This document shows positions 7,848 through 64,000 of a stretch of DNA of 64,000 nt, piece by piece; the first letter of the stretch is position 1; each line of letters begins with the position of its first letter. Source of the stretch: Hydrogenimonas urashimensis. Lineage in GTDB: Bacteria; Campylobacterota; Campylobacteria; Campylobacterales; Hydrogenimonadaceae. The stretch spans positions 1,166,001-1,230,000 of the forward strand of contig NZ_AP023212.1 of NCBI RefSeq assembly GCF_016593255.1, read 5' to 3'. Below the pieces are notes generated by a model. It had not been told where the DNA came from. It saw nothing but the letters and a program-made list of their open reading frames with translations, and did no database searches. Made by a program: the position numbers and the translations under genes.

Positions 7848-8576
7848 TTATTCAGCGGTCTCTTCTTCTTTCTGCATTTCAAGGTAGAGAATGCGTCCGC
7901 AATGCGGGCAGGTGGTGATCTCCTCCCCTTTGATCACTTCCGCGTAGGTTTTGTCGTTGATCTTCATGAAGCAGCCCATGCAGGCCTGTTTGCGTACCGG
8001 AACGACGGCCGTATTCTTCGCCCATCGGCGGATCTTGTCGTAGAAAGCGAGAATCTTCTGGCTCATTTTCGCGACCAGCTCCTGCTTCTGCCCGAACAGC
8101 TCCTGCTTCTGCTTCTCGATATCGGCGAGCTCCTTTTCGACCTCCTCTTTCAAAAGGGCGCTCTTCTCTTTCAGGGCTTCCAGCTCCCCTTTTTTGGTTT
8201 CGATCTCCGCTTTGCGGGTTTCGATCAGATTTTCGAGACGTTCGATCTCTTCGTTGGCAAAATCGAGCTGTTCCCTGGCGATCTCCTCTTCGAGCTGGAG
8301 CGCTTTGATCTCTTTCTCGGTTTTCGCTTCCGCCGTCTTCTTCTTGTTGGCTTCGAGTTTCTCTGTAAGTTCCTGGATGTGCAGATCGTTTTTCGCCTTT
8401 TTGAGCTCGGCATCCCGGATATCCTCTTCAAGCTCGAGAATCTCCCGTTCGACGGCGCTTTCTTGCTCTTCGACTTCCGCGAGTTTCGCCCGTGCTTTGG
8501 CAATTCTCGGTTCGAATGCGTCAATAGCCTGGTCGATTTTGGACAGTTCTATAAGCTCTTCAAGATGCTTGTTCAT
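7848..8576 (-). CDS. Coiled-coil protein with C-terminal C4 zinc ribbon
   Basis: This 242-residue protein has a long, highly charged coiled coil (about residues 1-180) and a C-terminal zinc ribbon: C-x-x-C in QACMGCFMKIN and C-x-x-C in TTCPHCGRILY. This matches the DUF164/CT398-like family, whose members have been linked to flagellar or secretion functions in Helicobacter and Chlamydia. I use the ATG at 8576 (MNKHLEELIELSKID), preceded by AAGGAA; the longer frame to 8627 would overlap the Nif3 gene. Exact role here is unknown. Confidence 0.9.
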   Translation of the reverse strand: MNKHLEELIELSKIDQAIDAFEPRIAKARAKLAEVEEQESAVEREILELEEDIRDAELKKAKNDLHIQELTEKLEANKKKTAEAKTEKEIKALQLEEEIAREQLDFANEEIERLENLIETRKAEIETKKGELEALKEKSALLKEEVEKELADIEKQKQELFGQKQELVAKMSQKILAFYDKIRRWAKNTAVVPVRKQACMGCFMKINDKTYAEVIKGEEITTCPHCGRILYLEMQKEEETAE

Positions 8577-8592
8577 GGATGGTTTTTCCTTA

Positions 8593-9315
8593 TCAGATGT
8601 AGGTGAAGGGGTTGATTGATTGTGCAATTATAACCGGAATCGGCAAATTTTTCAAATAGGGCGCCAGCGCCTCGGCGAAATACTTTTCACTCTCAAAGTG
8701 GCCGATATCGGCCATCATCAGCCCCTTCGAAAGCGCTTTCATCGCATCGTGGAATTTGATGTCGCCGGTGAGAAAAAGGTCGGCGTCGAGGGTGTCCATC
8801 AGCCCCGCGCCCGCGCCTGTCGTCATGGCGACCCGGCGCACACTTTTTTTGTTGCCGACGATGCGCATCTGTCCCAGTCCCAGTCTCTCTTTGATACGCT
8901 TCAAAAGCGCATCGCTTCGCCACTCTCCCTCCGTCACGCAGACGAATCCCTCGCAGTAGGCGACATCGAAGCCCAGAACCTCTTCGAAAACGTACCGGTT
9001 CAGATGGGTCTGGTCGAAGTTCGTGTGCATCGCGATCATCGCATGGTTCTTTCGAACCATTTTCCGCAGCAGGTTGGCCGGGTACTCGTTCCACAACAGC
9101 CGCTTGAGGCCCGAAAAGATAAGCGGATGGTGGAGGATGAAGAGGGTGTTCTCCTCCGCCTCTTCGATCATGCCCTCATCGATATCGACACTCAAAACGA
9201 TGCGTGCAGCCTCCTGCCCTCTTTCGCCAAGAAGCAGGCCACTGTTGTCCCAGGATTCCTGCAGCTCGAAGGGGCTCAATTCGTCAAGACGCTCATAGAT
9301 TTCTGCGATGGTCAT
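8593..9315 (-). CDS. Nif3-like dinuclear metal centre protein
   Basis: The 240-residue protein belongs to the NIF3/DUF34 family: WDNSGLLLGE near residue 21, the metal-binding HHPLIFSGLKRL, MIAMHTNFDQTHLNRYV, and GDIKFHDAMKALSKGLMMADIGHFESE at the C-terminus. These residues bind a dinuclear metal site; some members act as GTP cyclohydrolase-like or metal-insertase enzymes, but the general function is unsettled. It is upstream of the zinc-ribbon protein gene, an arrangement often conserved in Campylobacterota. Confidence 0.93.
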   Translation of the reverse strand: MTIAEIYERLDELSPFELQESWDNSGLLLGERGQEAARIVLSVDIDEGMIEEAEENTLFILHHPLIFSGLKRLLWNEYPANLLRKMVRKNHAMIAMHTNFDQTHLNRYVFEEVLGFDVAYCEGFVCVTEGEWRSDALLKRIKERLGLGQMRIVGNKKSVRRVAMTTGAGAGLMDTLDADLFLTGDIKFHDAMKALSKGLMMADIGHFESEKYFAEALAPYLKNLPIPVIIAQSINPFTYI

Positions 9316-9396
9316 CGAAACTCTTTTTGCAACTCTAAACCGAAAATTGCGGCATCCCGCACTCTATGCCGAAAAGGACAAAAGAGAGCAAAGCGG

Positions 9397-10284
9397 TCAC
9401 GCTTCGCCACGGATTCGGCGCTCCCGCTCGCCTTCTTGCTCTTTGTACAGTTCGGCGCACCCTTTGGCCAGCTCCCGGATTTTAAGGATGTAGTTGGCCC
9501 GTTCGGTGACCGAAATCGCCTTGCGGGCATCGAGAGTGTTGAAAAGGTGCGACGCGATCATGCACTGATCGTAAGCGGGCAGCGGCAGTCCCGCGTCCAG
9601 ACAGCGGCGGCACTCTTTGGCCGCATCGTCAAAATGGCCAAAGAGCATCTGGGTATCGGCTGTTTCGAAGTGGTATTTCGAAAATTCGTACTCGCTCTCT
9701 TTATGGACATCGGCATAGGTGGTCACCTGGCCATCCTTTTCGTTCCAGACGATATCAAAAACCGACTCGACCCCCTGCAGGTACATTGCCAGCCGTTCGG
9801 TGCCGTAGGTGATCTCGGCCGCCACCGGATCGCACGGCAGGCCGCCAACCTGCTGAAAATAGGTGAACTGCGTCACCTCCATGCCATCGAGCCACACTTC
9901 CCAACCCAACCCCCAGGCACCCAGGGTCGGCGATTCCCAGTTGTCCTCGACGAAGCGGATATCGTGCCGGCTCAGATCGAGCCCCAGATACTCCAGGCTT
10001 TTGAGGTAGAGGTCCTGGATGTCGTCGGGGCTTGGTTTGATGAGCACCTGAAACTGGTAATAGGCCCCCAGTCGGTTCGGGTTCTCCCCGTACCGGCCGT
10101 CGGTTGGGCGGCGGCTGGGCGCCACGTAGGCGGCCGCCCACGGTTTGGAGTCGAGGCTTCTTAGCAAGGTCGCCGGATGGAAAGTCCCCGCGCCCGCAGG
10201 AATGTCGTAGGGCTGAACGATGTTGCAACCCTGCCGGGCCCAGTAGGTCTGGAGCTTGAGAAGGAGGTCGGTGAATGTGATCAT
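9397..10284 (-). CDS. glyQ: Glycyl-tRNA synthetase alpha subunit
   Basis: The 295-residue protein is the catalytic alpha chain of the tetrameric glycyl-tRNA synthetase: [53 protein letters not shown], and [20 protein letters not shown] are all characteristic. I choose the ATG at 10284, which overlaps the glutaredoxin stop (ATGA). The beta subunit gene (glyS) is not in this window. Confidence 0.97.
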
Positions 10285-10538
10285 CTGATATCCAATGCTT
10301 TCTTGATTTTGGGTTCGTCGAAACCGCAGATCCATTGACTGCCGATCAGAACCACGGGCACACCCCGGCAACCGTGGCGTTCACAATCTTTGGCCGCCTG
10401 TTTGTTGGTGCTGATATCGATCGTCTTGAATTTGATGTCGTTTTTCTTGAAGAAGGTTTTGGCGCGTGTACACCAGACGCATCCCGGTGACGTGAAGAGA
10501 ACCACCTGTTTCTGGCGTTTCGGTTTCGCTTCGGCCAT
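10281..10538 (-). CDS. Glutaredoxin-family thiol-disulfide protein
   Basis: An 85-residue thioredoxin-fold protein with the active site C-V-W-C in [16 protein letters not shown] (near residues 20-23) and the cis-proline GVPVVLIG. Two further cysteines (DCERHGCRG) are unusual. A leading KPKRQKQ stretch precedes the fold. A strong AGGAGG lies before the ATG. It is translationally coupled to glyQ. A role in redox buffering is inferred from the fold only. Confidence 0.88.
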
Positions 10539-10572
10539 GGCACACCTCCTGCTGTTTGGAATTTTTGTGGAA

Positions 10573-13182
10573 TTATATCATTTCAATCGCCTCAAGAATG
10601 GTCTGATACTGAAACTGACTTGCCAGATTCTTCAACATCGCGGACAATTCGGGATCTGTTGCTTCTATTTTTTCGATCACGTCATCGATCCGTTTCGCAT
10701 CCAGCAGGATCACCACATCATGGAGTTCTCTCAAACGCGCTTTATCCAGCTTGTACAATCTCTTTTTCAAAGATTCCGTATCAATCGTCTCCAAACTGCT
10801 CTCTTCGTCGTTGCTTTCGTTGGAGCGGTAAAGGTAGGTCAAACCCAGATATTTCTGCATCGTCTCATAAATCTTTTTCACACTGTAGGGTTTGGCGACA
10901 AAATCGTCCAGACCGACTTTCAAGATCCGCTCTTTTTCATCGGAGAAGACGCTGGCGCTGAGTCCAACGATCTTAACGCGATCTCCATCCGGAAGGGAAC
11001 GGATGATTCTGGTCGCCTCTTCGCCATTCATAATGGGCATTCGATTGTCCATCCATATGAAATCGGGATGCCAGGTTTTGAAACGTTCCACCGCCTCTTG
11101 CCCGTTGGTGGCCGTGGCCACCTGCAGTCCCAGCGACTCGATCTGGGTACGCAGCAGCAACCGATTCTCCTCTTTGTCTTCGACGATCAGAATCCGTTTG
11201 TCCCGATCCTTCTTGGAAACACCGACGATCTCTTCATTTTCCATCTTTTCGAAGCTATGCGTCATTTTTTTATTTTCATCGCATACCTCGGCAGGGATCA
11301 TCGCACGGAAGGTGGATCCGACATCCTCTTGACTCTCGACCTCCAACTCTCCTCCCATCAGGCGGACATACTGCGAAACGATCGACAATCCCAGGCCCGT
11401 ACCGGTTTTTTCGGAAGCGCTTCCGACCTGGATAAAGGGTTCGAAAATTTTCTTCAGGTTTTCCCTGGCGATACCCACCCCCTCATCCTGCACCTCGATC
11501 ACCAGCTTTCCGTCTCTATAGCCGATATGAAGCAGAACGGTCCCCTTTTCACTGTATTTGACGGCATTGGTGAGAAAATTGATGAGAATCTGTCGTATCT
11601 TCTTCTCGTCTGCGAGAATGCAACCGGGTAGGTTGGAGGCCACTTTCGTCTGCAAAGAGAGCTGTTTGCGGTGGGCACGCACTTCCATCAACAGAACAAT
11701 ATCTTTCGCGATGGATACAGGGTCGACAGGACCCTTTTCCACTTTCACTTTGTTCGCTTCGATACGTGAGAGGTCCAGAACGTCGTTGATCAGCGTGAGC
11801 AGGAATCGTCCGCTTCTGTGAATGATGGAGAGCTTCTCCCTCTCCTTCTCATCCAAATCACGATCTTTGAGCATCAACTCCGAAAATCCAAGAATCGCAT
11901 TCAGGGGGGTACGCAGCTCGTGACTCATATTGGCCAGGAAGACCGATTTGGAACGGCTGGCATACTCCGCCTCCTCTTTGGCACTTTTCAACTCCGATGT
12001 CAGACGCTGGAAGCGTCTGTGCATATAGAGCCCGTAAAGAAGAAAGAGGATCAGTAGTCCGATAATGGCGGCCAGGTAGTAGAGTATCGTACTTTGCTGC
12101 GCAAGTTTCAGGTTCTGTTTTTTTATAACAGCCTGATGGTGAAGAATTTCGGCTTTGACGGCCGCGATTTTTTCCCTTTGGGCTCGGATGGTGCGATCGA
12201 GTTCGGCGATGGTGGCTTTCTGGGTTTCCAACGTTTTGGCCCGTTTCACAATTTGCCGTTCCTGACGCTCCAGTTTCTTTTCACGCTCCTTCAGAAGTTT
12301 TTGACGTTTTTCGATCTCTTTCTCCAGTGCGGCGAGTTGCCGCTCTTTCGCTGTAACCTGTCGCTCTTTCTCCTGCAGCCGCCAACGTTGTGTTTCCAGT
12401 CGTTTTTCTGTCGAACGTAATTTTCTTTCATTCTCTGCAAGCTTCTTCTCTTTTTTGCGATATGCCTCCGTCAAGGTTTTGAATTTCGATTTCAGTTTTT
12501 CAATCTCCTGCCGTTTCGACACGATCGTCTCCTGGAGTCTCCGGTTCTGCTGCAGCAATCGGTTGTATTTCAGCTCCTGTTCTTTCAAGGCCCGTAAAGA
12601 GGCCTCGAAAAGCCGGCTGATACCAACTTCGCTGCCGCCTGTCAACAGAATCTCTTTCGATACATGCAAACGATGCTTTTCTATGTTTTCCCTATTGATC
12701 TGAATCCGGGCTCGGTGCCTGCTGTCGAAATAGATATTGATCATGATCGATTCAGCAGAATCGGCATCGCCGGTGATCAGCAGCAGCGGCAGAGACGCGG
12801 GAATCATGCGATAGATTTGAGGAACCTCTTTCGCAAAAGGCCGGTCGACAAAGAGGAGATGATAGTTTTTCAGTCGGTTTGGGTCGATCCTGTCAAGTGA
12901 AACCACTTCGACGGAGAGATCGTGAAGCTTAAGATTTCGTGTCATCGATTTCAAGCGCGGATAGATCCGTTTTCGCCCCTTTTCATAGACGGCGATCACA
13001 AACTTTTCTTTTTTAAGAGCGGTATACGGCCATCTCGTATTTTTTGCGAGCAGATAGATATAGGCGGATATCAGATCTTCGTAACTTCTGGGATTTTCGT
13101 AGCGTATCTTCGATGCATCGCTGACCATGACCACCGACAGCACCATCAGGGCCATCAGCCAGACTTTTTTATAAAACCACAT
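10573..13182 (-). CDS. Hybrid sensor histidine kinase with YfiR-like periplasmic domain
   Basis: An 869-residue protein. Residues 1-23 are a signal/anchor; about 25-185 resemble the YfiR/DUF4154 periplasmic domain ([15 protein letters not shown], then FVIAVYEKG and LPLLLITGD). About 195-365 is a long coiled coil, 366-388 a membrane segment. HisKA follows with His421 in [16 protein letters not shown], an ATPase domain ([24 protein letters not shown]), then a receiver with Asp712 in WMDNRMP and Lys764 in AKPY. A helical tail ends the protein. It is divergent from a TonB-dependent receptor gene and near an HD-GYP regulator, suggesting one signalling unit. The trigger is unknown. Confidence 0.93.
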
Positions 13183-13203
13183 ACAACAACCTATCTTTTC
13201 TGA

Positions 13204-13220
13204 TATAATCGAATATATTC
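13204..13220. promoter_or_regulatory. Divergent promoter region with a palindrome
   Basis: TATAAT at 13204-13209 is a good plus-strand -10 for the TonB-dependent receptor (28-base leader to its ATG). GAATATATTC at 13211-13220 is a perfect 10-bp palindrome lying between the divergent genes and could be an operator. The histidine kinase promoter must lie in the same 60 bases. Confidence 0.45.
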
Positions 13221-13243
13221 AATTTTTGATTAGAGCATTCCTA

Positions 13244-15397
13244 ATGAGATACGCTTTTTTTCTTTTCTCTCTCTTATTCTGCATGAATGGCTGGAGTGCT
13301 GATGAACTGTTTGATCTCACATTGGAAGATTTGAGCCAGATACCCATTATGGAAACGGGTGCCACACTCACCGAAACGGATCCCAGAACATCCCCCGCTT
13401 CCGTTACAGTCATCACCCATGAACAGATCGTCCGCGCCAATCCGAAAAATCTGGATCAACTGTTGGAGATTTACGTTCCCGGATTGACCTACTCCCACAG
13501 TGTCCATGGAGATCAGTTGGGAATCCGGGGAATCATAAGCGACCGTAACAACAAAATTCTGCTACTGGTCAACGGCAGGCAAATGAATATCAAAGCCGCC
13601 GACGGCGGCGCGGCGACGGAACGGTGGTTTTCGCTGCTGGGGGACATTCGCCGCATCATGGTTTACAGCGATCCGGGATCGGCCGTCTTCGGCCCCGGAG
13701 CCATCGCCGGCGTCATCAATATCGAAACTTTCAGCGGTAGCAATTATGAGGGCACCGATTTTCATATGGAAGCGGGCGCCGTGGACGAGCTTCTCTCCGC
13801 GGAGGTCCGCCACGGACAGAAACTGGAGAACGGATTTTCGCTCTTTCTTTATGCGGGTATTGACAAAGCCCATGGAAGTGAAACGGACCATGCCCACCAC
13901 AAACTGGCTTTCGACTTGACCAACCGTCCCTGGGATACAGATAAAATTCTGATTCATGCCAACAAAAACATGCCCATCGAAACGACCCGTATCGGTCAAA
14001 GTTTTCACGACCAGCCCAGGGAAAAACTCCACATGCAACTCGATGGAGAAAATTTCACACTCTGGGGCCGATGGACGCAAAGCGGTATCGCCATGCCCTC
14101 CGGTCAACACCGTTATGCCGTATTCGATCCGAAAGATTTACGTGATACGGGAGCAAAAAACCGTCAAGCCACGTTATACGGTCAATATCACTCGACTTTG
14201 TCGGATAAAGTCGATATAACATCATCCATCAGTTATATGCAGACAGACGTGGATATCAATACGGCGCAACAACCGACACGAGGCAAAAAATGGGTCGAAA
14301 AGAACACCTATCTGGCGACTTTGGCGCAGATCACCCCCGATTCAAACCATCTGTTCGCTGTGGGTTGTTCCTACTCCTACAACGATTTCAAACATTTCAA
14401 CCAACCTTTTTTAGAAGTGATGGAGAGAAAATGGTACTCCGATATGCTCTCCTTCTATGGTGAATATCAATGGATCGTCAACGACAGATGGACCGCTTTT
14501 TTTGGAGCCAGGGCAGACAAGCACCGCTTCACACAATGGATGTTTTCGCCACGCATTTCCGTCGTTTACCTCCCCACTTCCTACGATACGATCAAACTAA
14601 TTTACAACCACTCTAATCGCCATTCGGACGATTACGATCTGCTCCTTCAACACGACCTGTTGGATCAGAAAGGGGATCTGGAGACAATCGACCACTACGA
14701 GATCATCTACGATCACCGATTGGACAGCAGCTGGAAATTCGAGTCCTCTTTTTATTTCAACGACCAGAATTTGGTCGCCTACAACAAAAACAAGAAGCTG
14801 CAAAGTCATCTGGGTCGCCTGAGGATATGGGGTATCGAAGCCTCTTTTCACTATAAAACGGACGATTACGAATTCGATCTCTCCCATACATTCACCAAAC
14901 TGGGCGATTTCGATCTGGCCGACACCGATCTTGATACCCAATTTGTCAGTGCGATGCCCTATGGATACGGCCACGACCTGATGGCATGGGACAACCATAT
15001 CACCAAAGCCCGTCTAACCTGGCATTTGCAAAAAGGGCTGGAATGGTTCAACAGTCTGAGAATCTTGTGGGGAAAACCGGGAGCCGTGGATATGGCCGAT
15101 TACAATATGGATACCCACCATTACGACCCGAAAAGTTCCGATTTCTGGAAAGAGAACGATTGGGATCTTTTGAAACTGCCCCTCTACAAAGACTCCAAAC
15201 GGGCTTTCGGACTTTCAGCCTTTTTGGATATAGGTATCATCTATCGTCCCAACAGGCATTGGCGTTATGGTTTGCATATCTACAATCTGCTGGGACTTTT
15301 CGACGACGACCTCAACAAACGCAATTATGTCAATATACCCAGCCATACCATCGATGAACCGGCATCGGTAGCGATCGATGTTGCTTACTCTTTTTAG
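13244..15397 (+). CDS. TonB-dependent outer-membrane receptor
   Basis: A 717-residue receptor. A signal peptide (MRYAFFLFSLLFCMNGWSADE) is followed by the plug domain (ASVTVITHEQIVRANPKNLDQLLEIYVPG, LGIRGIISDRNNKILLLVNGR, GPGAIAGVINIET; about residues 45-170) and a 22-strand-type barrel ending in a C-terminal aromatic (VAYSF). The N-terminal LTLEDLSQIPI resembles receptors paired with YfiR-type kinases. I use the ATG at 13244 rather than the upstream in-frame TTG. No substrate-uptake genes adjoin it, so a sensory role with the divergent kinase is as likely as transport. Confidence 0.92.
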   Translation: MRYAFFLFSLLFCMNGWSADELFDLTLEDLSQIPIMETGATLTETDPRTSPASVTVITHEQIVRANPKNLDQLLEIYVPGLTYSHSVHGDQLGIRGIISDRNNKILLLVNGRQMNIKAADGGAATERWFSLLGDIRRIMVYSDPGSAVFGPGAIAGVINIETFSGSNYEGTDFHMEAGAVDELLSAEVRHGQKLENGFSLFLYAGIDKAHGSETDHAHHKLAFDLTNRPWDTDKILIHANKNMPIETTRIGQSFHDQPREKLHMQLDGENFTLWGRWTQSGIAMPSGQHRYAVFDPKDLRDTGAKNRQATLYGQYHSTLSDKVDITSSISYMQTDVDINTAQQPTRGKKWVEKNTYLATLAQITPDSNHLFAVGCSYSYNDFKHFNQPFLEVMERKWYSDMLSFYGEYQWIVNDRWTAFFGARADKHRFTQWMFSPRISVVYLPTSYDTIKLIYNHSNRHSDDYDLLLQHDLLDQKGDLETIDHYEIIYDHRLDSSWKFESSFYFNDQNLVAYNKNKKLQSHLGRLRIWGIEASFHYKTDDYEFDLSHTFTKLGDFDLADTDLDTQFVSAMPYGYGHDLMAWDNHITKARLTWHLQKGLEWFNSLRILWGKPGAVDMADYNMDTHHYDPKSSDFWKENDWDLLKLPLYKDSKRAFGLSAFLDIGIIYRPNRHWRYGLHIYNLLGLFDDDLNKRNYVNIPSHTIDEPASVAIDVAYSF

Positions 15398-55209: not shown

Positions 55210-56373
55210 ATGAGGCATTCACGCCGACCGATCGTTCAGACGACACTTCTTGCATTTTTCGTCACGCCGTTGCTGGCGACCAACGGTGATCTGCTCATAG
55301 GTGTCGGGGCCAAAACCCGTGGAATGGGCGGTGCCGGTATCGCCTACGGCCACAAGTCGGAATCGACTCTGGTCAACCCCGCCCTCATTGCCACGACCCC
55401 TTCAAGAGAGATGAGCGTAGGTGCGACGTTTTTCTATCCCGACATCGAAACCAAAACCTCGATTATGGACGATTACGACCCCAGCGATAGCGATTTTTAC
55501 GTCATCCCTTTCGCTTCCGTCTCGAAACCGATGGGCGATCATTGGTATGTGGGCCTGGGCATGTGGGGGACGGCGGGCCTGGGCACCGATTTCGAAGGCA
55601 ATCCCGCACTCTTTAACATGCAGACCCAATTGATGCTGATGCAGATCGCCCTTCCCGTCGCCTACCGGATGGGAAACTGGAGCTTTGGCGCCGCCCCCAT
55701 CGTCGAATACGGTTCTTTGGATATCTCCTACCATCTGGGCGGCATAAAAATCGACCCGGATGCGGCGAATGATTTCGGTTTCGGTTGGTCCGCCGGCTTC
55801 ACCTACGACTTCGGCAACGGCCTCATCGTGGGAGCCGTCTACAAATCCCCCGTGGAGATGAAGTACAAAGGCGTTCTTTCGGATGCCACCCTCGGTGCAC
55901 TGGATGACAGACTCACCCAGCCTGAAGAGATGGGCGTCGGCATCGACTACAACTGGGCCACACACCACTCCGTCGCCATCGACTACAAACGCATCGGCTG
56001 GGGATCGGTGGAAGGGTACGAGGATTTCAACTGGAAAGACCAGGATGTCTTCGCCATAGGATACGAATACGCTACCACGGAATGGGCACTGCGCCTCGGT
56101 TACAACCATGCAAAAAGCCCCATCGAACTCTCACCGGGCGGGTTCAGCAATGGCGGGCTGCTCAATATGCTGAATCTTCTGGGCTTCCCCGCCACCGCCG
56201 AAGACCACTACACGACCGGTGTGAGCTATACGATCAGCGACATCTCCTCCATGGATCTCGCCTTCGTCTACGCGCCGCAAACAATGGTTGAAGCACCCAT
56301 CGTTTTGAAACAGAATATCGCCGTCAGACATAGCGAATTCAGCTTTACCGTACAGTATAACTATAAATATTGA
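55210..56373 (+). CDS. FadL/OmpP1-family outer-membrane transporter
   Basis: A 387-residue barrel protein with a signal peptide (to about residue 21, LLAT). The FadL N-terminal hatch reads KTRGMGGAGIAYGHKSESTLVNPALIA, and repeated aromatic strands end in FTVQYNYKY. These proteins move hydrophobic molecules across the outer membrane; substrate not deducible. Confidence 0.9.
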   Translation: MRHSRRPIVQTTLLAFFVTPLLATNGDLLIGVGAKTRGMGGAGIAYGHKSESTLVNPALIATTPSREMSVGATFFYPDIETKTSIMDDYDPSDSDFYVIPFASVSKPMGDHWYVGLGMWGTAGLGTDFEGNPALFNMQTQLMLMQIALPVAYRMGNWSFGAAPIVEYGSLDISYHLGGIKIDPDAANDFGFGWSAGFTYDFGNGLIVGAVYKSPVEMKYKGVLSDATLGALDDRLTQPEEMGVGIDYNWATHHSVAIDYKRIGWGSVEGYEDFNWKDQDVFAIGYEYATTEWALRLGYNHAKSPIELSPGGFSNGGLLNMLNLLGFPATAEDHYTTGVSYTISDISSMDLAFVYAPQTMVEAPIVLKQNIAVRHSEFSFTVQYNYKY

Positions 56374-56771: not shown

Positions 56772-57119
56772 ATGGAATCTTTCCTTGTCTATACTGCGGG
56801 AGTGACGTTCGCCGTATTTCTTCTCTATTTCATCGGTGTGGCCATCGCCCCCTACAAACCAGATAGCGTCAAAAACGACCACTTCGAGTGCGGACTTCCT
56901 GCAAGCAGCGATCAGCCCAAACGGGCGAACTACGGGTTTTTCGTCTATGCCATCATGTTCATTGCAGCGGACATGACCGGGCTCTTTTTCACCCTTTTCG
57001 TCTTCGATCTGAAGGGGCACAGCGCTCTTGTTGCCGGGCTCTTCGCCCTGCTGATGGGGGGTGCGATCACCCTGGCCATGCGGGAACTTCAAATCCACGA
57101 CAAAGGCCTGTCGCGATGA
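56772..57119 (+). CDS. nuoA: Complex I subunit A
   Basis: A 115-residue NuoA with three membrane helices and the conserved loop YKPDSVKNDHFECGLPASSD, which carries the quinone-site-proximal Cys. GAAGG precedes the ATG. It opens the nuo operon and overlaps nuoB by four bases. Confidence 0.93.
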   Translation: MESFLVYTAGVTFAVFLLYFIGVAIAPYKPDSVKNDHFECGLPASSDQPKRANYGFFVYAIMFIAADMTGLFFTLFVFDLKGHSALVAGLFALLMGGAITLAMRELQIHDKGLSR

Positions 57120-57589
57120 TAAAGATACTCGATTTTTTCGACTACGCCCGGAGTGAAAGCCTATGGATGGCCCATTTCTGCACCGGCTGCTGCTCGCTTG
57201 AAATGGCTGCGGCCATGGGCCCCCGGTACGATTGGGAGCGTTACGGCTATATGTCCACGCCAACCCCTCGCCAGGCCGACGTTTTGATGATCACGGGCCT
57301 GGTAAGCAAAAAGATTCTCCCTGCCCTTCTTCGCACCTACGCCCAGATGCCCGAACCCAAATATGTGATGGCCCTGGGTGCGTGCAGCTACGACGGCGGT
57401 CCCTACAACGATTCGCTCTCCGTCATCAAAAATCCCACGGAGATTCTTCCCGCCGATGTCTTCGTCGCGGGATGCCCACCCAAACCGGAAGCGATCATCG
57501 AGGGGCTCGAAGAGATCAAACGCAAAATCAAAGCCAAAGAGCCCAGTGCCGCCAGCCAGGGTGGCATCTGGAAAGAGATGGAGTTCTGA
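57116..57589 (+). CDS. nuoB: Complex I subunit B
   Basis: A 157-residue NuoB that binds cluster N2: the Cys pair is in HFCTGCCSLEMAAAMGPRYD, the third Cys in ALGACSYDGGPYN and the fourth in VAGCPPKPEAI. The ATG overlaps nuoA (ATGATAA). Its last base pairs with the start of nuoCD (TGATG). Confidence 0.96.
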   Translation: MIKILDFFDYARSESLWMAHFCTGCCSLEMAAAMGPRYDWERYGYMSTPTPRQADVLMITGLVSKKILPALLRTYAQMPEPKYVMALGACSYDGGPYNDSLSVIKNPTEILPADVFVAGCPPKPEAIIEGLEEIKRKIKAKEPSAASQGGIWKEMEF

Positions 57590-59232
57590 TGGAGCGTATC
57601 AAAGAGAGGCTGAAAACCTTTTCGACCGAGTACGTCGAAGAGTACAAACCCACCTGGATCAAAACCAAACTCACGGACGCCAAAGATATCGTCGCTCTCG
57701 CCGCCTCTCTCAAATCGGAGGGATTGCGGACATTGAGCACCGTCAGTCCCACCGATTTTCCCGAAGAGGGCATCATGGAGATGAACTACTTCTTCGAAGA
57801 CCTGGAAGGACGGCGCAACTGCTGGGTCAAATGCGACATCCCCAGAGATCTGGAATCGTGCGTCATCGACTCCGTCACCCCGGTGATGCCCTCCGCCGAA
57901 TGGCACGAGCGGGAAGCTTTCTCGATGTTCGGGGTGAAGTTTCGCAACCATCCCGACCTAAGGCCCATCATTATCAGCCAGGATTATTACGGCAAATTTC
58001 CGTTTCGGAGCGATTTCGACTGGGAAGCCCACGAAAAGGAGCAGATGGAGCACATCAAAACGATCGTCCGCGATTTCAAGTCGCAGCAGCAAACCAACGA
58101 AATCGAGCTCGACCCGGAGGGATCGGAAGTAATCCTCAACTGGGGACCGACCCACCCCGCCAGCGGTCCGATCCGTCTGAAAGTGCGATGCGACGGAGAG
58201 GATATCGTCGCCGTCGATCCGGAGATCGGATACGTCTGGCGGGCGCTGGAAGATCTGGTGACCCGGAAAGATTTCGTCGGAGCCATCGTGGCGGTGGAGC
58301 GTCTTTGCTTCATGGACAACATCAATTCGATGACGGGCTACTGCATGGCCGTCGAAGAGATCGCCGGTACCGAAATCACCGAGTTCGCCAAATGGATGCG
58401 GGTACTTTTGGGCGAGTGCGCCAGAATCTCCTCCCACATGATGGGCATGGGAAACTTTTTCAACACGATGGGCCTGCATACGATGATGCTGTGGAATCTG
58501 GACGTTCGGGAGTTTTTTCTCGATGTTCTGGAATCCTACAGCGGCGCCCGGATCGCGACGGCGGCGATCGAACCCGGCGGAGTGCGCTACCCGCTCGATA
58601 TGAAGCTGATGGATGAGCTCCAAAGGGCACTGGATAAATTCGACGCGACGATCGGGGATATCGAAAACGTCTTCGCGAAAAACCCCACGATGCGCAAACG
58701 GGCTACCCAAATAGGCAAAATCGGCAAGGACGAAGCGATCGAGTGGGGGCTCAGCGGCCCCGTCGCCAGGGCCAGCGGCGTGAAAACCGACATTCGGATG
58801 TGCGAACCCTACGCCGCTTATGACCAGGTCGACATGGGCTACCGCACCCAGGAGGGCGGCACGGCGGCGGACCGTTTCCAGGTGCTCTTCGACGAACTGA
58901 AACAGTCCGTCGACATTCTGCGCCAGGCCAAACGAAGAATCGAGGAGGGGGTCGCCTCCAAAGAATTCGACCCCGCCAGAGACCATATGGTCAAAGTGCC
59001 GAAAAAACTGCCCGCGGGGGAGGCCATCAGCCGTGTCGAATGGGCACGGGGAGAGGTTCTGATGCACCTGGTGACACGCGAGAAGGCGAAATCTCCCTAT
59101 CGCCTCAAAATGCGCGCTCCCAGCGTCAACCACACGATGGTTCTCGACCGCCTCCTTCGGGGCAAAACGCTTTCGGACATCCCGCTGGTGTTCGGAAGCC
59201 TCTACATCTGCCAGGGCGACCTGGACCGATAA
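57589..59232 (+). CDS. nuoCD: Fused complex I subunits C and D
   Basis: A 547-residue fusion. The C part (about 1-150) has SAEWHEREAFSMFGVKFRNHPDLRPI; the D part follows with GPTHPASGPIRL (186-197), DPEIGYVWRALEDL, AVERLCFMDNINSM (234-247), MAVEEIAGTEI and the C-terminal GSLYICQGDLDR. Usual NuoD has HPSTHG or HPAAHG and RMDYLH-like motifs; the second His and the quinone Tyr appear absent here. Fusion occurs in some bacteria. Next gene is nuoH; nuoE, F, G are missing. Confidence 0.92.
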   Translation: MERIKERLKTFSTEYVEEYKPTWIKTKLTDAKDIVALAASLKSEGLRTLSTVSPTDFPEEGIMEMNYFFEDLEGRRNCWVKCDIPRDLESCVIDSVTPVMPSAEWHEREAFSMFGVKFRNHPDLRPIIISQDYYGKFPFRSDFDWEAHEKEQMEHIKTIVRDFKSQQQTNEIELDPEGSEVILNWGPTHPASGPIRLKVRCDGEDIVAVDPEIGYVWRALEDLVTRKDFVGAIVAVERLCFMDNINSMTGYCMAVEEIAGTEITEFAKWMRVLLGECARISSHMMGMGNFFNTMGLHTMMLWNLDVREFFLDVLESYSGARIATAAIEPGGVRYPLDMKLMDELQRALDKFDATIGDIENVFAKNPTMRKRATQIGKIGKDEAIEWGLSGPVARASGVKTDIRMCEPYAAYDQVDMGYRTQEGGTAADRFQVLFDELKQSVDILRQAKRRIEEGVASKEFDPARDHMVKVPKKLPAGEAISRVEWARGEVLMHLVTREKAKSPYRLKMRAPSVNHTMVLDRLLRGKTLSDIPLVFGSLYICQGDLDR

Positions 59233-59241
59233 GGATTGAAG

Positions 59242-60201
59242 ATGATACAGACATTGATCGATGCCTTAGTTTTTCCGGGTTTGCTCTACGCCCTGGTATG
59301 GACTGTCGGCCTCTTCTGGTTCTTCCGGAAATTCATGGCGCCCCTGCACAAACGTGTCGGTCCCTATTTCAACGGTCCCCACGGCAGCTACCAGACCCTT
59401 TTCGATCTGACGAAACTCTGGACCAAAGAGTCGATCACCCCCAGGGGCGTCAACCCTCATCTCTTTTCTCTGATGCCCCTTCTGGCACTCATCATCGCGC
59501 TGCTTCCCAACGCCTACGTGCCGTGGACACCCGCGGGAGCGGCGCTTAAAAGCCATTACAGCCTGCTGATACTCGTCGTTCTCATCGGCATTGAGCCGTT
59601 TCTTCTTTTCCTGACAGGTTTCGGTTCGGAAAACAAATACTCCTTTCTCGGAGGCATACGGGTCCTGACCCAGGCGATCTCCTTCGAAACCGCCTTCTTC
59701 CTCTCGGCCCTCGCGCCCGCGCTTCTGCTGGGCACACTCGATCTTGCGCAGATCGTGGAAAAAAGCAACCTGCTCACTTTCATCATTCTTTTACCGGCTT
59801 TGGCCCTCTATTTCATCGCCCTGCTGGGGCTTTTGGAGCAGCCGCCTTTCAACATTCCCGATGCGGAACAGGAGATCGTCTACGGATTTCTGACAGAATA
59901 CAGCGGCACCAACTACTTTCTGCTCAACCTCTCCAAATTCGTGGAGTTCATGGCGGTTTTCGCCGGTGTGGGAGCGCTCTATCTGGGAGGGTACAAAGGA
60001 ATCTTTTTCGACGGGTATATCTGGTTTTTTCTCAAAATGCTCATGGTCGCGGTCGTCATGATCACCATCCGTGCCGCGACTCCCCGCGTGACGCTGAAGC
60101 AGATGCTCGCCTTTTCCTGGCGCTGGCTGGTCCCGCTGAGTCTGCTCGATCTGGCATGGGTACTCTTTGCTAAAACCTTCTTTTTCAGTCAGGGGGCCTG
60201 A
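59242..60201 (+). CDS. nuoH: Complex I subunit H
   Basis: A 319-residue membrane subunit with about eight helices. KRVGPYFNGPHGSYQTLFDLTKLWTKE corresponds to the RVGPN quinone-channel loop but lacks the usual asparagine; EQPPFNIPDAEQEIVYGFLTEYSGTNYFLL matches the acidic E-channel loop. Start at the ATG at 59242 with AAGGA upstream. Confidence 0.94.
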   Translation: MIQTLIDALVFPGLLYALVWTVGLFWFFRKFMAPLHKRVGPYFNGPHGSYQTLFDLTKLWTKESITPRGVNPHLFSLMPLLALIIALLPNAYVPWTPAGAALKSHYSLLILVVLIGIEPFLLFLTGFGSENKYSFLGGIRVLTQAISFETAFFLSALAPALLLGTLDLAQIVEKSNLLTFIILLPALALYFIALLGLLEQPPFNIPDAEQEIVYGFLTEYSGTNYFLLNLSKFVEFMAVFAGVGALYLGGYKGIFFDGYIWFFLKMLMVAVVMITIRAATPRVTLKQMLAFSWRWLVPLSLLDLAWVLFAKTFFFSQGA

Positions 60202-60202
60202 A

Positions 60203-60781
60203 ATGTTTTTGACCGATTTTATAAAAAAAGTGATCCGGGTCTCCAAAGCGCTGAGCGTCAAAAGCCCCGCCTACGGGCATGACTACCGTTTTGAAGCGGC
60301 CCACCACCCCGGCCGCTACCGGGGGCAGCACCGCATCGACTACGAAACCTGCATCGGGTGCGACGCCTGTAACAAAATCTGTCCGGTACACGCCATCACG
60401 ATGAAGAAACTTCCTTTCAAAAAACGAAATATCGTGCCGGAGGTCAACCTCTCCGTCTGCATCTTCTGCGGCCTTTGTGAAGATGTCTGCCCCACGAAGC
60501 CCGAGAAATCGATCAAACTCTCCGGCGGCCGCTACGACATGCTCACCGGAGGATGGCATGAGAGCCAGGAGGATTTCTGGGTCCATGTGGAGATTCCCGA
60601 ATCCTACATCAAAAGCCGCCTCGAAGCGGAAGAGGCGGCCCGTGTCGCCAAAGAGCTGAAACAGAAGAAAAAAGAGGCCCAGGCCAAAGCGGCCGCCGCG
60701 GGAAAAACGGAGGCCGCCAATGGGCCTTCTCCCTCCCTCGACCTCTCCTCCGCACCCCTTCCCGAAGGAGACGATCAATGA
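60203..60781 (+). CDS. nuoI: Complex I subunit I (two 4Fe-4S clusters)
   Basis: A 192-residue ferredoxin-like subunit with YETCIGCDACNKICPVHAI and SVCIFCGLCEDVCPTKP binding clusters N6a and N6b. The last 45 residues are an Ala/Lys/Glu-rich tail (EAEEAARVAKELKQKKKEA) not typical of the core. Overlaps nuoJ by four bases. Confidence 0.95.
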   Translation: MFLTDFIKKVIRVSKALSVKSPAYGHDYRFEAAHHPGRYRGQHRIDYETCIGCDACNKICPVHAITMKKLPFKKRNIVPEVNLSVCIFCGLCEDVCPTKPEKSIKLSGGRYDMLTGGWHESQEDFWVHVEIPESYIKSRLEAEEAARVAKELKQKKKEAQAKAAAAGKTEAANGPSPSLDLSSAPLPEGDDQ

Positions 60782-61281
60782 GTGCGCTATTTTTGTTGAC
60801 TATCGCTTTGATTCTGGCCGTGGCATCGCTTTTTATCAGAAAAACCGTCCCGGCGATGATCAGTTTCGCCCTGATGATGCTGACCCTCGGACTCTTCTAT
60901 ATCTCGCTGGACGCGACGCTGCTGGGACTTTTCCAGATTTTCGTCTATACGGGCGGCATCGTCGTGCTCATGCTCTTTGGCATCACGATCATCGGCGTCG
61001 AATTTCCCGAAACGCCCCCGCGCCCCTGGACCGCCGTCACCGCTTTCGGGCTTTTCGTCGCCATGAGCCTATTTTTTCTAAAAGGAAGCCATACACTCGA
61101 AAAAACGCGCTCATCGGTGACGGAAGATCCCGGCCTCTTCCTCACAGGGTACGTCGATACGGTCATACTCTTCGCCCTGATCGCGGCGGCACTGTTATAC
61201 GGCACCGTCAAAATGGTCGACGTTCTAAGAAGCAAACCCGCTTCGCACCCGCAGAAAGGAGCCGCCGATGTTCGGGATTGA
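60778..61281 (+). CDS. nuoJ: Complex I subunit J
   Basis: A 167-residue, five-helix subunit, with ALMMLTLGLFYISLDATLLGLFQIFVYTGGIVVLMLFGI, the conserved TM3 pi-bulge region. Its 3' end overlaps nuoK by 14 bases. Confidence 0.94.
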   Translation: MSALFLLTIALILAVASLFIRKTVPAMISFALMMLTLGLFYISLDATLLGLFQIFVYTGGIVVLMLFGITIIGVEFPETPPRPWTAVTAFGLFVAMSLFFLKGSHTLEKTRSSVTEDPGLFLTGYVDTVILFALIAAALLYGTVKMVDVLRSKPASHPQKGAADVRD

Positions 61282-61567
61282 GATGGTGTTCGCCTTCGCA
61301 CTGTTTGGCCTTGGGGTGTATGGCGTCGGTTCGAGGCGCGATTTTCTGCGCATCTTCTTTTCGCTCGAAATGATGGTCAATGCAGTGATTTTGATGCTGG
61401 CACTCTCCGCGCGGCATCTTGGTCTGAGCGAAAATATCGAACTGGCCTACCTCATCATCGTCCTGGCGACACTGGAAGCGGCGGCGGGCCTACTGATTTT
61501 CGGCGCCACGCACCGCATCACCCGGGCGATCCGCCCCGACGATCTGGGCAACGAGGAGAGAGCATGA
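61268..61567 (+). CDS. nuoK: Complex I subunit K
   Basis: A 99-residue three-helix subunit with GVYGVGSRRDFLRIFFSLEMMVNAVILM, whose Glu is the conserved proton-channel residue, and AYLIIVLATLEAAAGLLIF with the second Glu. Coupled to nuoJ and nuoL. Confidence 0.95.
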   Translation: MFGIEMVFAFALFGLGVYGVGSRRDFLRIFFSLEMMVNAVILMLALSARHLGLSENIELAYLIIVLATLEAAAGLLIFGATHRITRAIRPDDLGNEERA

Positions 61568-63411
61568 ACCTTCCTCTCATCCTACTGATTCTACCGTTCG
61601 CCGGCGCCGTCGCGGCCTATCTTCTGGGACGCTTCAAGACCCCACTTGCCTTCTGGGTGGCCGAAATCACGGGGGCCATCCTGTTTGGGGTGAGCCTTCT
61701 GCTGCTGATGGAGTACCGACAGCCCATCGACATCCCGCTGGAGTGGTACCGCTTCGGCGATTTCGCCATACCTTTTGGCATCTACATCGACAAACTCTCC
61801 CTCGTCATGCTGCTGATCGCCACCGGGCTGGGATTTTTGGATATCCATTTCGCCCACGACTACATGGGAGAAGATCCCCACCAGCCCCGCTACTACGCCA
61901 AGGTCCTCTTCTTCATCGGCGGCATGATCCTGCTCGTAAGCGCCAAAGAGCTGGTTCCGCTCTTTGTCGGGTGGGAGTTCATGGGACTTGCGAGCTATCT
62001 TCTCATCTCCTTCTGGCACCAGAAAAAAGAGCCCGCCGACGCGGGGGTAAGCGCCTTTCTCTTCACCCGCTTCGGGGATATCTTTCTCTTCGCCGCCATC
62101 GGGTCGCTCTACTATGTCGCAGGCACCCTCGACATGGTCCGGTTGAACGAACTGGCCGCATCGGGCACGCTTGATAGAGACTTCATCTTCGTCATGGCGG
62201 TCTTCATCTTCATCGCCGCCATCGGCAAGTCGGGGCAGTTTCCCCTCTTTCCCTGGCTGATGCGCGCGATGGAGGGGCCGACCACCGTTTCGGCACTGAT
62301 ACACGGGGCCACGATGGTTAATAGCGGTATCTATATCGTCGCACGTCTTTTCGATTTCTACATGGCCGCGGAAGCGCTGGCCGTCGTCGCTTCCATCGGT
62401 GCACTCAGCGCCTTCATCGGTGCCACGAGCGCCCTGGTGCAGCGTGAAATGAAAAAGGTGCTGGCCTACTCCACCATGTCCCACCTCTCCATCGCCTTCG
62501 TCGGCCTCGGCGCCGGTTCGCTGGCGGCAGGCATGACCCACCTGGTCAACCACGCCGTCTTCAAGGCGCTGCTCTTTCTCAGTGCCGGTGCCATCATGCT
62601 GGCGGCCCATCACGTCAAAGACCTCTGGCGCCTGGGCGGGTTGGGGAAAAAACTGACCTATACGGCTCTTTTCATGGGGATGGGGGTTCTCTCTTTAGCG
62701 GGTATTCCGCCTTTTAGTGGTTTCCACTCCAAAGACGCCGTCATCGCCCATGCCATCGCCAATCCCCAGACAACGGGATTGTTGGCGCTTCTTGTCACCG
62801 TCGCGGGGCTGCTTTCGATGGCTTACGGCGGACGCCTCTGGGTTCTCATCTTCGCCGGCAAGCCACGCGATAAAAAGCTCAATCAATCGGTCAAACCCCC
62901 ATCGAAATTGTGGATCGTTCTGCCCCTGGGGATCATGGCGGCCGCGACACTGCTCATGGGCTTTTACCAGGAGCCGATCGCCGAAATGGTCAGCGAAAAG
63001 GGGTTGACCGCTCCTCACGTGGCGGGATTGCTTCCATTTATGCTGATCACAATCGCCCTGCTGGCCTGGCTGGTCTGGTTCTATTACGCCAGGCGGCTCG
63101 ACCTCGTCGAAAAGATCGCGGCCCAGCCGTTGATGCAGACGATCCACAAAGTGCTCTTCAACGGCTATTTCATCGAATATCTGATCCTCTGGTTCACCCG
63201 CAGCTTCATCGTGCAGAGTTTCGCCCGCGCCGTCAACTGGAGCGACCGCAGGCTTGTGGATGGCGCCATCGACGCCACCCTTCCTTTCTCAAAGAAAACC
63301 ACCACCCTTTTCGCCCGTTTCCAGCCCAAAAGAAGCGGTGAAAACGCCGGAGCGATGGCCCTGGGACTGCTGCTGCTTCTTATCGCACTATGGATGGGAG
63401 GTGCGGTATGA
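61564..63411 (+). CDS. nuoL: Complex I subunit L (antiporter-like)
   Basis: A 615-residue antiporter-like subunit: VPLFVGWEFMGLASYLLISFW (channel Glu), GKSGQFPLFPWLMRAMEGPTTVSALIHGATMVNSGIY (key Lys and His), LVQREMKKVLAYSTMSHLS, and a C-terminal lateral helix. Pumps protons. Overlaps nuoM by four bases. Confidence 0.96.
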   Translation: MNLPLILLILPFAGAVAAYLLGRFKTPLAFWVAEITGAILFGVSLLLLMEYRQPIDIPLEWYRFGDFAIPFGIYIDKLSLVMLLIATGLGFLDIHFAHDYMGEDPHQPRYYAKVLFFIGGMILLVSAKELVPLFVGWEFMGLASYLLISFWHQKKEPADAGVSAFLFTRFGDIFLFAAIGSLYYVAGTLDMVRLNELAASGTLDRDFIFVMAVFIFIAAIGKSGQFPLFPWLMRAMEGPTTVSALIHGATMVNSGIYIVARLFDFYMAAEALAVVASIGALSAFIGATSALVQREMKKVLAYSTMSHLSIAFVGLGAGSLAAGMTHLVNHAVFKALLFLSAGAIMLAAHHVKDLWRLGGLGKKLTYTALFMGMGVLSLAGIPPFSGFHSKDAVIAHAIANPQTTGLLALLVTVAGLLSMAYGGRLWVLIFAGKPRDKKLNQSVKPPSKLWIVLPLGIMAAATLLMGFYQEPIAEMVSEKGLTAPHVAGLLPFMLITIALLAWLVWFYYARRLDLVEKIAAQPLMQTIHKVLFNGYFIEYLILWFTRSFIVQSFARAVNWSDRRLVDGAIDATLPFSKKTTTLFARFQPKRSGENAGAMALGLLLLLIALWMGGAV

Positions 63412-64000
63412 GCGCCCTGATCTTCATCTTCGGTCCGATACTCCTCGCTGCCCTTGTCGGTTGGATGGGCCGAAAAGATGGCGCATGGGTCCGCTACGTC
63501 GCCCTGGCGCTTTTTACCCTGTTGCTGGCCTACGCGCTTTGGCTGCTTCGGCACGTCCCGCACGGGGGCTATCTTTCGCTCGGAGAATTCCTGAACGTGC
63601 CCGCCTTCAAATTCGCCCTGACATTGCAGGTCGATACACTCTCGGCCATCATGCTGCTTCTGACGGCGACGCTTCTGCTTCTGGTGGGGCTTTCGAGCTG
63701 GACGATCGACCGGCCGGGGCCCTATTTCGCACTTTTGATACTCTTTAGCGGCCCCATCGTCGGTGTTTTCGCCACGACCAGCCTGCTCTGGTTCTTCATC
63801 TTCTGGGAGCTTACGTTGGTGCCGATGGTTTTTCTGGTAGGCATCTGGGGCGCCGAGCGTCGTATCTACGCCGCCGTGAAGTTCTTCCTCTACACCCATT
63901 TCGCTTCGATGCTGATTTTGCTGGCCTTCTTTCTCATCTATGCCCAAAGCGGCGTGTTCGATATGACGCAGCTCAAGGAGTCGATGCTTCTTACGCCGGC
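63408..64000 (+). CDS. nuoM: Complex I subunit M (partial, cut by window end)
   Basis: The first 197 codons of NuoM: MSALIFIFGPILLAALVGW, LQVDTLSAIMLLLTATL, TTSLLWFFIFWELTLVPMVFLVGIWG with the channel Glu, and ERRIYAAVKFFLYTHFASMLIL. The rest, and presumably nuoN, lie beyond the window. Confidence 0.95.
   Translation, partial: MSALIFIFGPILLAALVGWMGRKDGAWVRYVALALFTLLLAYALWLLRHVPHGGYLSLGEFLNVPAFKFALTLQVDTLSAIMLLLTATLLLLVGLSSWTIDRPGPYFALLILFSGPIVGVFATTSLLWFFIFWELTLVPMVFLVGIWGAERRIYAAVKFFLYTHFASMLILLAFFLIYAQSGVFDMTQLKESMLLTP

Follow-up and report, generated by a model that had tools for sequence, protein, structure and literature searches.

Hydrogenimonas urashimensis carries a nuo operon for a ten-subunit relative of respiratory complex I whose catalytic subunit, NuoD, has an altered active site. 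The His, Tyr and Asp of the quinone headgroup site are all three missing from this NuoD, and each hydrogenase CxxC pair keeps its first Cys, with an Asp in place of the second (C240/D243 and C541/D544). From these residues, an altered acceptor site in NuoD is well supported. The loss of the quinone-binding residues and the retention of two hydrogenase cysteines, as in the archaeal sulfur-reducing enzyme MBS, together suggest that the acceptor is probably something other than quinone.

The operon and its genomic setting

The window, i.e., the whole stretch of 64,000 nucleotides that was analysed, covers positions 1,166,001-1,230,000 of the 2.30 Mb single-contig genome of H. urashimensis. The altered operon occupies 56772-64000 on the forward strand and encodes NuoA, B, CD, H, I, J, K, L and M, with NuoN just past the window end (Table 1). 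Its ten genes, nuoABCDHIJKLMN with C and D fused, include all of the core Q and P subunits of respiratory complex I (A, B, C, D and H-N), and E, F and G are absent. By eye, the frame just upstream of nuoA (55210-56373) resembles FadL/OmpP1 outer membrane proteins, and the first long frame beyond nuoN, on the opposite strand, resembles an efflux-pump outer-membrane protein.

The NuoD family is found at four loci in this genome, namely the altered operon, two canonical clusters (L007 and L008) and L009. The first canonical cluster (L007 5136-11896) is of the Campylobacterota type with two NuoG-like frames and, by eye, a GltD-like flavoprotein (667 aa) in the usual place of NuoF; the single NuoF of the genome lies inside the L008 cluster. 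L009 (616000-634000 of the genome) holds at 8339-15304 a group-4/Ehr-like cluster beside suf-like genes, the fourth complex I relative in 2.3 Mb, and its HyfG-like protein of 455 aa is without either CxxC motif (ERISGNES; CDLSYAGNDL).

Table 1. Features of the altered nuo operon (window positions unless a locus is named)
Feature	Position	Strand	Basis
nuoA	56772..57119	+	PF00507 over cut-off
nuoB, cluster N2 subunit, F-C22-T-G-C25-C26	57116..57589	+	PF01058 and NuoB models over cut-off
nuoCD fusion, 547 aa, altered catalytic subunit	57589..59232	+	PF00329 and PF00346 over cut-off; alignments
beta1-beta2 loop GPTHPASGPIR, H38-equivalent deleted; H189-P-A-S-G-P from 58153	58147..58179	+	alignment, loop-length count
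L1 motif E237-R-L-C240-F241-M-D243-N, Phe for Y87	58297..58320	+	alignments
T293, site of Thermus Nqo4 D139	58465..58467	+	alignment
L2 motif C541-Q-G-D544-L-D-R547, C-terminus	59209..59229	+	aligned to HycE CYSCTDR and MbsL CPPDIDR
nuoH, complex-I-type, RVGPYFNGP	59242..60201	+	PF00146; NuoH tree
nuoI, with two 4Fe-4S clusters; ferredoxin probably docks here	60203..60781	+	Pfam Fer4
nuoJ	60778..61281	+	PF00499
nuoK	61268..61567	+	PF00420
nuoL	61564..63411	+	PF00361/PF00662, NDH_I_L over cut-off
nuoM, cut by window end; whole at L006 6791-8248	63390..64000	+	profile match
nuoN, next after nuoM	L006 8245-9555		profile match

Active-site residues

The altered NuoD was aligned with the cell's own canonical NuoD proteins, E. 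coli NuoCD and HycE. At the loop it reads GPTHPAS-GPIRL, compared with GPQHPSAHGQLRL as a canonical example, and at L1 it reads VERLCFMDN where canonical NuoD has TDRMDYIAA; the two canonical NuoD of H. urashimensis read GPQHPSAHG and GPSHPASHG at the loop, and TDRMDYI and TDRLNYC at L1. The initial annotation had noticed that HPASGPIRL is one residue shorter and lacks the second His, which indeed falls in a one-residue alignment gap, and that ERLCFMDN has Phe for the quinone Tyr, as the alignment to canonical NuoD confirms. It had also likened the Cys of this segment to the first L1 Cys of group 4 hydrogenases, and C240 does match the first Cys of HycE DRVCGIC. When the alignment was checked for a canonical His or Tyr at the quinone headgroup, neither was placed there.

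In Thermus Nqo4 numbering, which was taken from the 2fug_4/4hea sequence, H38 is lost by the one-residue deletion, D86 is replaced by C240, Y87 by F241 and D139 by T293. The loss of the D139 equivalent goes beyond what had been seen in the initial annotation, which also missed the second motif, C541-Q-G-D544, aligned to the hydrogenase CxxC. Both [NiFe] motifs of HycE are therefore matched by alignment, DRVCGIC to ERLCFMD and CYSCTDR to CQGDLDR. Against the NuoD equivalog model TIGR01962 the altered NuoD scores 270.7 bits, under the cut-off of 459 bits.

An AlphaFold model of the altered NuoCD has a mean pLDDT of 82.6, falling below 50 in the active-site loops 187-193 and 543-547, and for this reason the geometry of the site is not read from it. 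The NuoCD/HycE fold was confirmed by fold searches, in which 7z0s_E (Z 37.2) and 7p64_C (Z 36.4) scored practically alike, and MBS (6u8y) was not among the best 50 matches listed. Kinship with Aquifex NuoCD2, the first PDB match, was considered and rejected, as that protein has HPGTHG and DRMDYI and falls among canonical NuoD in the tree.

Of the neighbouring subunits, NuoB has C22, C25 and C26, so that the tandem CC of complex I is present and a fourth N2 ligand is available; judged from the motif, N2 may have four Cys ligands in the altered complex. The proximal-cluster motif is FCTGCC in this NuoB and FCTGCG in MbsJ, with only the CC in complex I, and because NuoB keeps the tandem CC, the three-Cys proximal cluster of MBS may not hold here. 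The motif [FL]C[TS]GCC is found in 61 of 62 NuoB orthologs, the remaining one being truncated ahead of it, and both 4Fe-4S Cys motifs are found in 54 of 56 NuoI orthologs.

The NuoH sequence RVGPYFNGP, which the initial annotation had added to the NuoD motifs in proposing an altered acceptor site, is present as described. It is not diagnostic, however, because chloroplast NdhA, part of a plastoquinone reductase, has RIGPEYAGP, and because the site varies among the orthologs themselves (RVGP[YHSK][FYS]NG...); as such, we rejected it as a sign of an altered acceptor. The proposal thus stands for NuoD, through the three quinone-site losses, the two cysteines with acidic partners and the parallel with MBS, and is not supported for NuoH.

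Distribution, phylogeny and electron partners

A protein search by homology alone found altered-NuoD orthologs in 12 of 298 Campylobacterota genomes: H. urashimensis, four of family f4 and seven of family f5, the last presumably Nautiliaceae from matching protein lengths and identities. The same 298-genome search found none in the four other genomes of its own genus that were drawn. None of the loop, L1 and L2 motifs varies among these 12 orthologs, found by homology alone, and they are therefore no chance effect; C240, D243, C541 and D544 are invariant in the 12 and in an alignment of 36.

A scan of named genome contigs added 51 further loci, which agree wherever they are readable. These come from metagenome-assembled genomes (MAGs) labelled Nautiliaceae, Sulfurimonas, Sulfurovum, Thiovulum, Helicobacteraceae etc., with two labelled Gammaproteobacteria. 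The scan was baited with CFMDN[PI]N and L[NH]WGPTHP, i.e., with part of the motif, so that these two segments are biased in the 51 loci; the C-terminal CxxD and the D139 position were outside the bait. Across the 63 sequences (12 by homology and 51 by the baited scan, with at least 4 contigs counted twice) the second His is absent in 63/63 and the L1 C..D is present in 63/63. The L2 C..D is present in 57/57 readable ends, the other six being five truncated sequences and L062 with a frame change, and the D139 equivalent is never Asp in the 61 readable orthologs, where it is T, N, A, S or M.

All ten genes stand in the same order in 34 of the 51 loci, and in the remaining 17 a contig or locus end interrupts the operon. 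No NADH module (E, F, G) was found beside the altered operon in the 51 loci at 1e-8, and NuoE, F, G and GltD-like queries had no match in any of them. The two gammaproteobacterial-labelled MAGs (L051 and L054) group with Thiovulum (L064), by transfer or mis-binning. The L054 copy, from a MAG labelled Thiomicrospira cyclica, has NuoB and NuoCD in one 725-aa frame (8202-10376), NuoH and NuoI in one 528-aa frame (10383-11966) and, by eye, a nucleotidyltransferase/HEPN-like pair inserted between nuoK and nuoL.

In a tree of 32 L-subunit rows, the altered NuoD sequences form one clade (100/100), and altered NuoD, MbsL and canonical NuoD are set apart together from the group 4 hydrogenases (100/99); MbsL groups with canonical NuoD at 94/92. 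This layout was kept when two haloarchaeal NuoD and a plasmid Ehr-like row were added, or when the longest rows were removed (MbsL with canonical NuoD at 88/81 and 89/73). Neither a constrained clade of altered NuoD and MbsL (p-AU 0.21) nor one of altered and canonical NuoD without MbsL (p-AU 0.097) was rejected. The trees used 12 of the 63 altered sequences and left out Fpo, the Bacillota 11-subunit NuoD and the Sphingobium NuoD (L104); their exact branching order for NuoD is provisional, because MBS is represented by one long row and several long branches come together. The NuoD phylogeny, a check named in the initial annotation, puts altered NuoD outside canonical complex I and beside MbsL, with the p-AU of 0.21 for the MBS grouping.

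The NuoH tree has the altered clade as sister to five canonical NuoH (altered with canonical 100/98) and rejects NuoH and MbsM as one clade (p-AU 0.0056); the NuoB tree does not separate the three groups. Taken together, the NuoH and NuoD trees therefore describe a membrane part of complex-I type with a catalytic subunit of the MBS-like two-cysteine state.

The altered NuoCD is the only NuoCD in 7/7 f5 genomes, where the other matches are group 4 or Ehr-like by score and those fetched show CxxC at L2. NuoF is absent from 10 of the 12 genomes (7/7 f5 and 3/4 f4). In two of the 51 loci, L038 (13625-19437) and L066 (9536-14093), a pyruvate:ferredoxin oxidoreductase and a dihydroorotate-dehydrogenase-like gene lie between nuoJ and nuoK, and the oxidoreductase of L066 matches TIGR02176 at 1810 bits, over cut-off. 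The insert in L038 also includes a 415-aa membrane protein. A CoA-disulfide-reductase-like flavoprotein abuts the operon in 5 of the 51 loci (L031, L034, L037, L066 and L067); the best NCBIfam match of the L037 copy is CoA-disulfide reductase, at 221 bits, below cut-off. The operon neighbours point to ferredoxin and, weakly, to sulfur/thiol chemistry.

Possible function and known systems

We tentatively read the complex as an ion pump linked to ferredoxin, with an acceptor that is MBS-like and probably not quinone, a reading that is plausible but comes with some reserve. Lacking the NADH module, this ten-subunit relative of complex I would pump ions with electrons exchanged with ferredoxin at NuoI, which would pass through the two [4Fe-4S] clusters of NuoI and cluster N2 in NuoB to a pocket between NuoD, B and H. 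By its sequence, that pocket has lost the headgroup residues and kept two of four former [NiFe] cysteines with Asp partners, and with such residues it may work like the archaeal sulfane reductase MBS. It would most likely reduce, or in reverse oxidise, a small sulfur compound (polysulfide or persulfide) and not quinone, with the complex-I-type membrane arm coupled to this redox step. A reverse run in autotrophic members could use the proton motive force to supply reduced ferredoxin for CO2 fixation. The direction of electron flow, the sulfane acceptor and the ferredoxin partner are what we infer.

Several points count against the MBS-like reading. The tandem CC of NuoB may allow a four-Cys N2, and the MBS mechanism, as set out in the available part of PMC7684303, needs a three-Cys cluster; the two retained cysteines are dispensable for MBS catalysis in the same source. 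NuoH is of the complex-I type, not the MbsM type, and agrees with a quinone tunnel. The NuoD tree does not settle the MBS grouping (p-AU 0.21), few loci show the operon links, CoADR-like proteins are widespread, and a cytosolic sulfur substrate has to be assumed for these bacteria. Complex I quinone-site mutants can also keep partial activity.

A serious rival is a menaquinone reductase with a re-engineered pocket: the complex would still be a ferredoxin:menaquinone oxidoreductase with a normal NuoH tunnel, and other residues (e.g., D243, D544 or water) would serve protonation in place of Tyr, His and Asp. We consider this a real possibility, given that NuoH, NuoA and the L/M/N arm are complex-I-type, that the N2 tandem Cys is kept, and that one haloarchaeal NuoD has DRWDW, with Trp for Tyr, so that not every NuoD has the Tyr; the available part of PMC11238625 also reports that 11-subunit complexes elsewhere feed menaquinone. 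However, the three headgroup residues are lost jointly and never restored in readable orthologs, and the pocket Cys and Asp are invariant, which is more than mere loss predicts. The cell's two canonical NuoD have the standard residues there, and therefore an unusual membrane quinone alone cannot explain the altered site. The same invariance, at the four NiFe ligand positions and in both the 12- and 36-ortholog alignments, would suit a catalytic metal ion bound by C240, D243, C541 and D544 in a Cys2Asp2 remnant of the [NiFe] centre. We think this improbable, as the available part of PMC7684303 describes active Cys mutants and no metal for the near-identical MBS set (CxxE/CxxD), and as the altered protein ends at R547 with no C-terminal extension for hydrogenase-type processing.

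The lost canonical residues could otherwise mean that the redox site is degenerate and that the complex is mainly an antiporter-like module. This is very hard to credit, given the strong conservation of NuoI, NuoB/CD and the Fe-S ligand motifs (ortholog NuoB at 78-97% to that of the window) and given that the altered NuoCD is the sole NuoCD of the seven f5 genomes. Doubtful, if less so, is the wider view of a living bacterial stem lineage of complex I, with a full proton-pumping arm and a catalytic subunit halfway between [NiFe] hydrogenase and quinone reductase, its two remaining Cys of four each paired with an Asp; ferredoxin and sulfane sulfur would be its substrates. Autotrophs fed by sulfide would run it backward, so that the proton motive force would push electrons of reduced sulfur onto ferredoxin to supply the reductive TCA cycle.

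The altered operon is relevant to the supply of reduced ferredoxin or NAD(P)H in vent Campylobacterota, as seven Nautiliaceae-like genomes have no other NuoCD. The genome paper on Nautilia profundicola, in its available text (PMC2628731), describes a nuo operon that lacks E, F, G and K, and suggests that electrons from the quinone pool flow in reverse to NAD(P)H. Judging by the Nautiliaceae loci, that partial complex I is very probably the same operon, and the same text makes no mention of the altered active site. A Campylobacterota-specific complex-I-like clade is described, without active-site detail, in the available part of a 2025 survey, and searches of the open-licence PMC literature listed no publication on the altered NuoD active site.

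The 11-subunit complex I-like enzymes (Desulfitobacterium, NDH-1/Fpo type) share the A-D and H-N set without E, F and G, and take ferredoxin or another donor at NuoI. They differ in having canonical quinone residues in the sequences seen, which were NdhH (HPSMHG/RWDY) and haloarchaeal proteins (PATHG, PSTHG), with the Desulfitobacterium NuoD outside this comparison; the one exception is a Trp at the usual Tyr in the NuoD of a Halobellus plasmid (L103, DRWDWGG). Group 4 [NiFe] hydrogenases (HycE, MbhL) share the [DE]RxC start of L1 and the first L2 Cys, but they have four Cys in two CxxC pairs, whereas the altered NuoD has Asp for two of these and falls outside them in the tree.

The closest parallel in the active site is the MBS of Pyrococcus furiosus (6u8y). 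In an alignment that is gap-free across the first motif, R-I-C85-V-P-E88 of MbsL matches R-L-C240-F-M-D243 of the altered NuoD; at the second motif C385-P-P-D388-I-D-R391 matches C541-Q-G-D544-L-D-R547. The available part of PMC7684303 reports that MbsL is without H38 and Y87 and keeps C85 and C385, that C85/C385 mutants stay active and that catalysis takes place at the three-Cys proximal cluster. The stretch from GPxH to DGE is 19 residues long in MbsL and in 63/63 altered NuoD, and 20 in canonical NuoD, MbhL, HycE and Ech, a measurement that does not extend to Coo, the haloarchaeal rows and one plasmid row. Both complexes lack H38 and Y87, have an acidic residue for the second Cys of CxxC, carry FCTGC in the proximal-cluster subunit and have no NADH module. 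In the evolutionary scheme of the same partly available source (PMC7684303), complex I descends from pumps resembling hydrogenases that lost their four NiFe Cys step by step, with MBS as a two-cysteine step on a different membrane arm. The altered operon has the two-cysteine state on a complex-I-type arm, and the order in which the arm and the active site changed is therefore directly open to study. MBS, whose Mrp-type form also occurs in some bacteria (available part of PMC10356935), differs by its Mrp-type membrane arm and by a proximal cluster with three Cys, whereas the altered complex has the Nuo A/H/J/K/L/M/N arm, fused C and D, and the tandem CC of NuoB.
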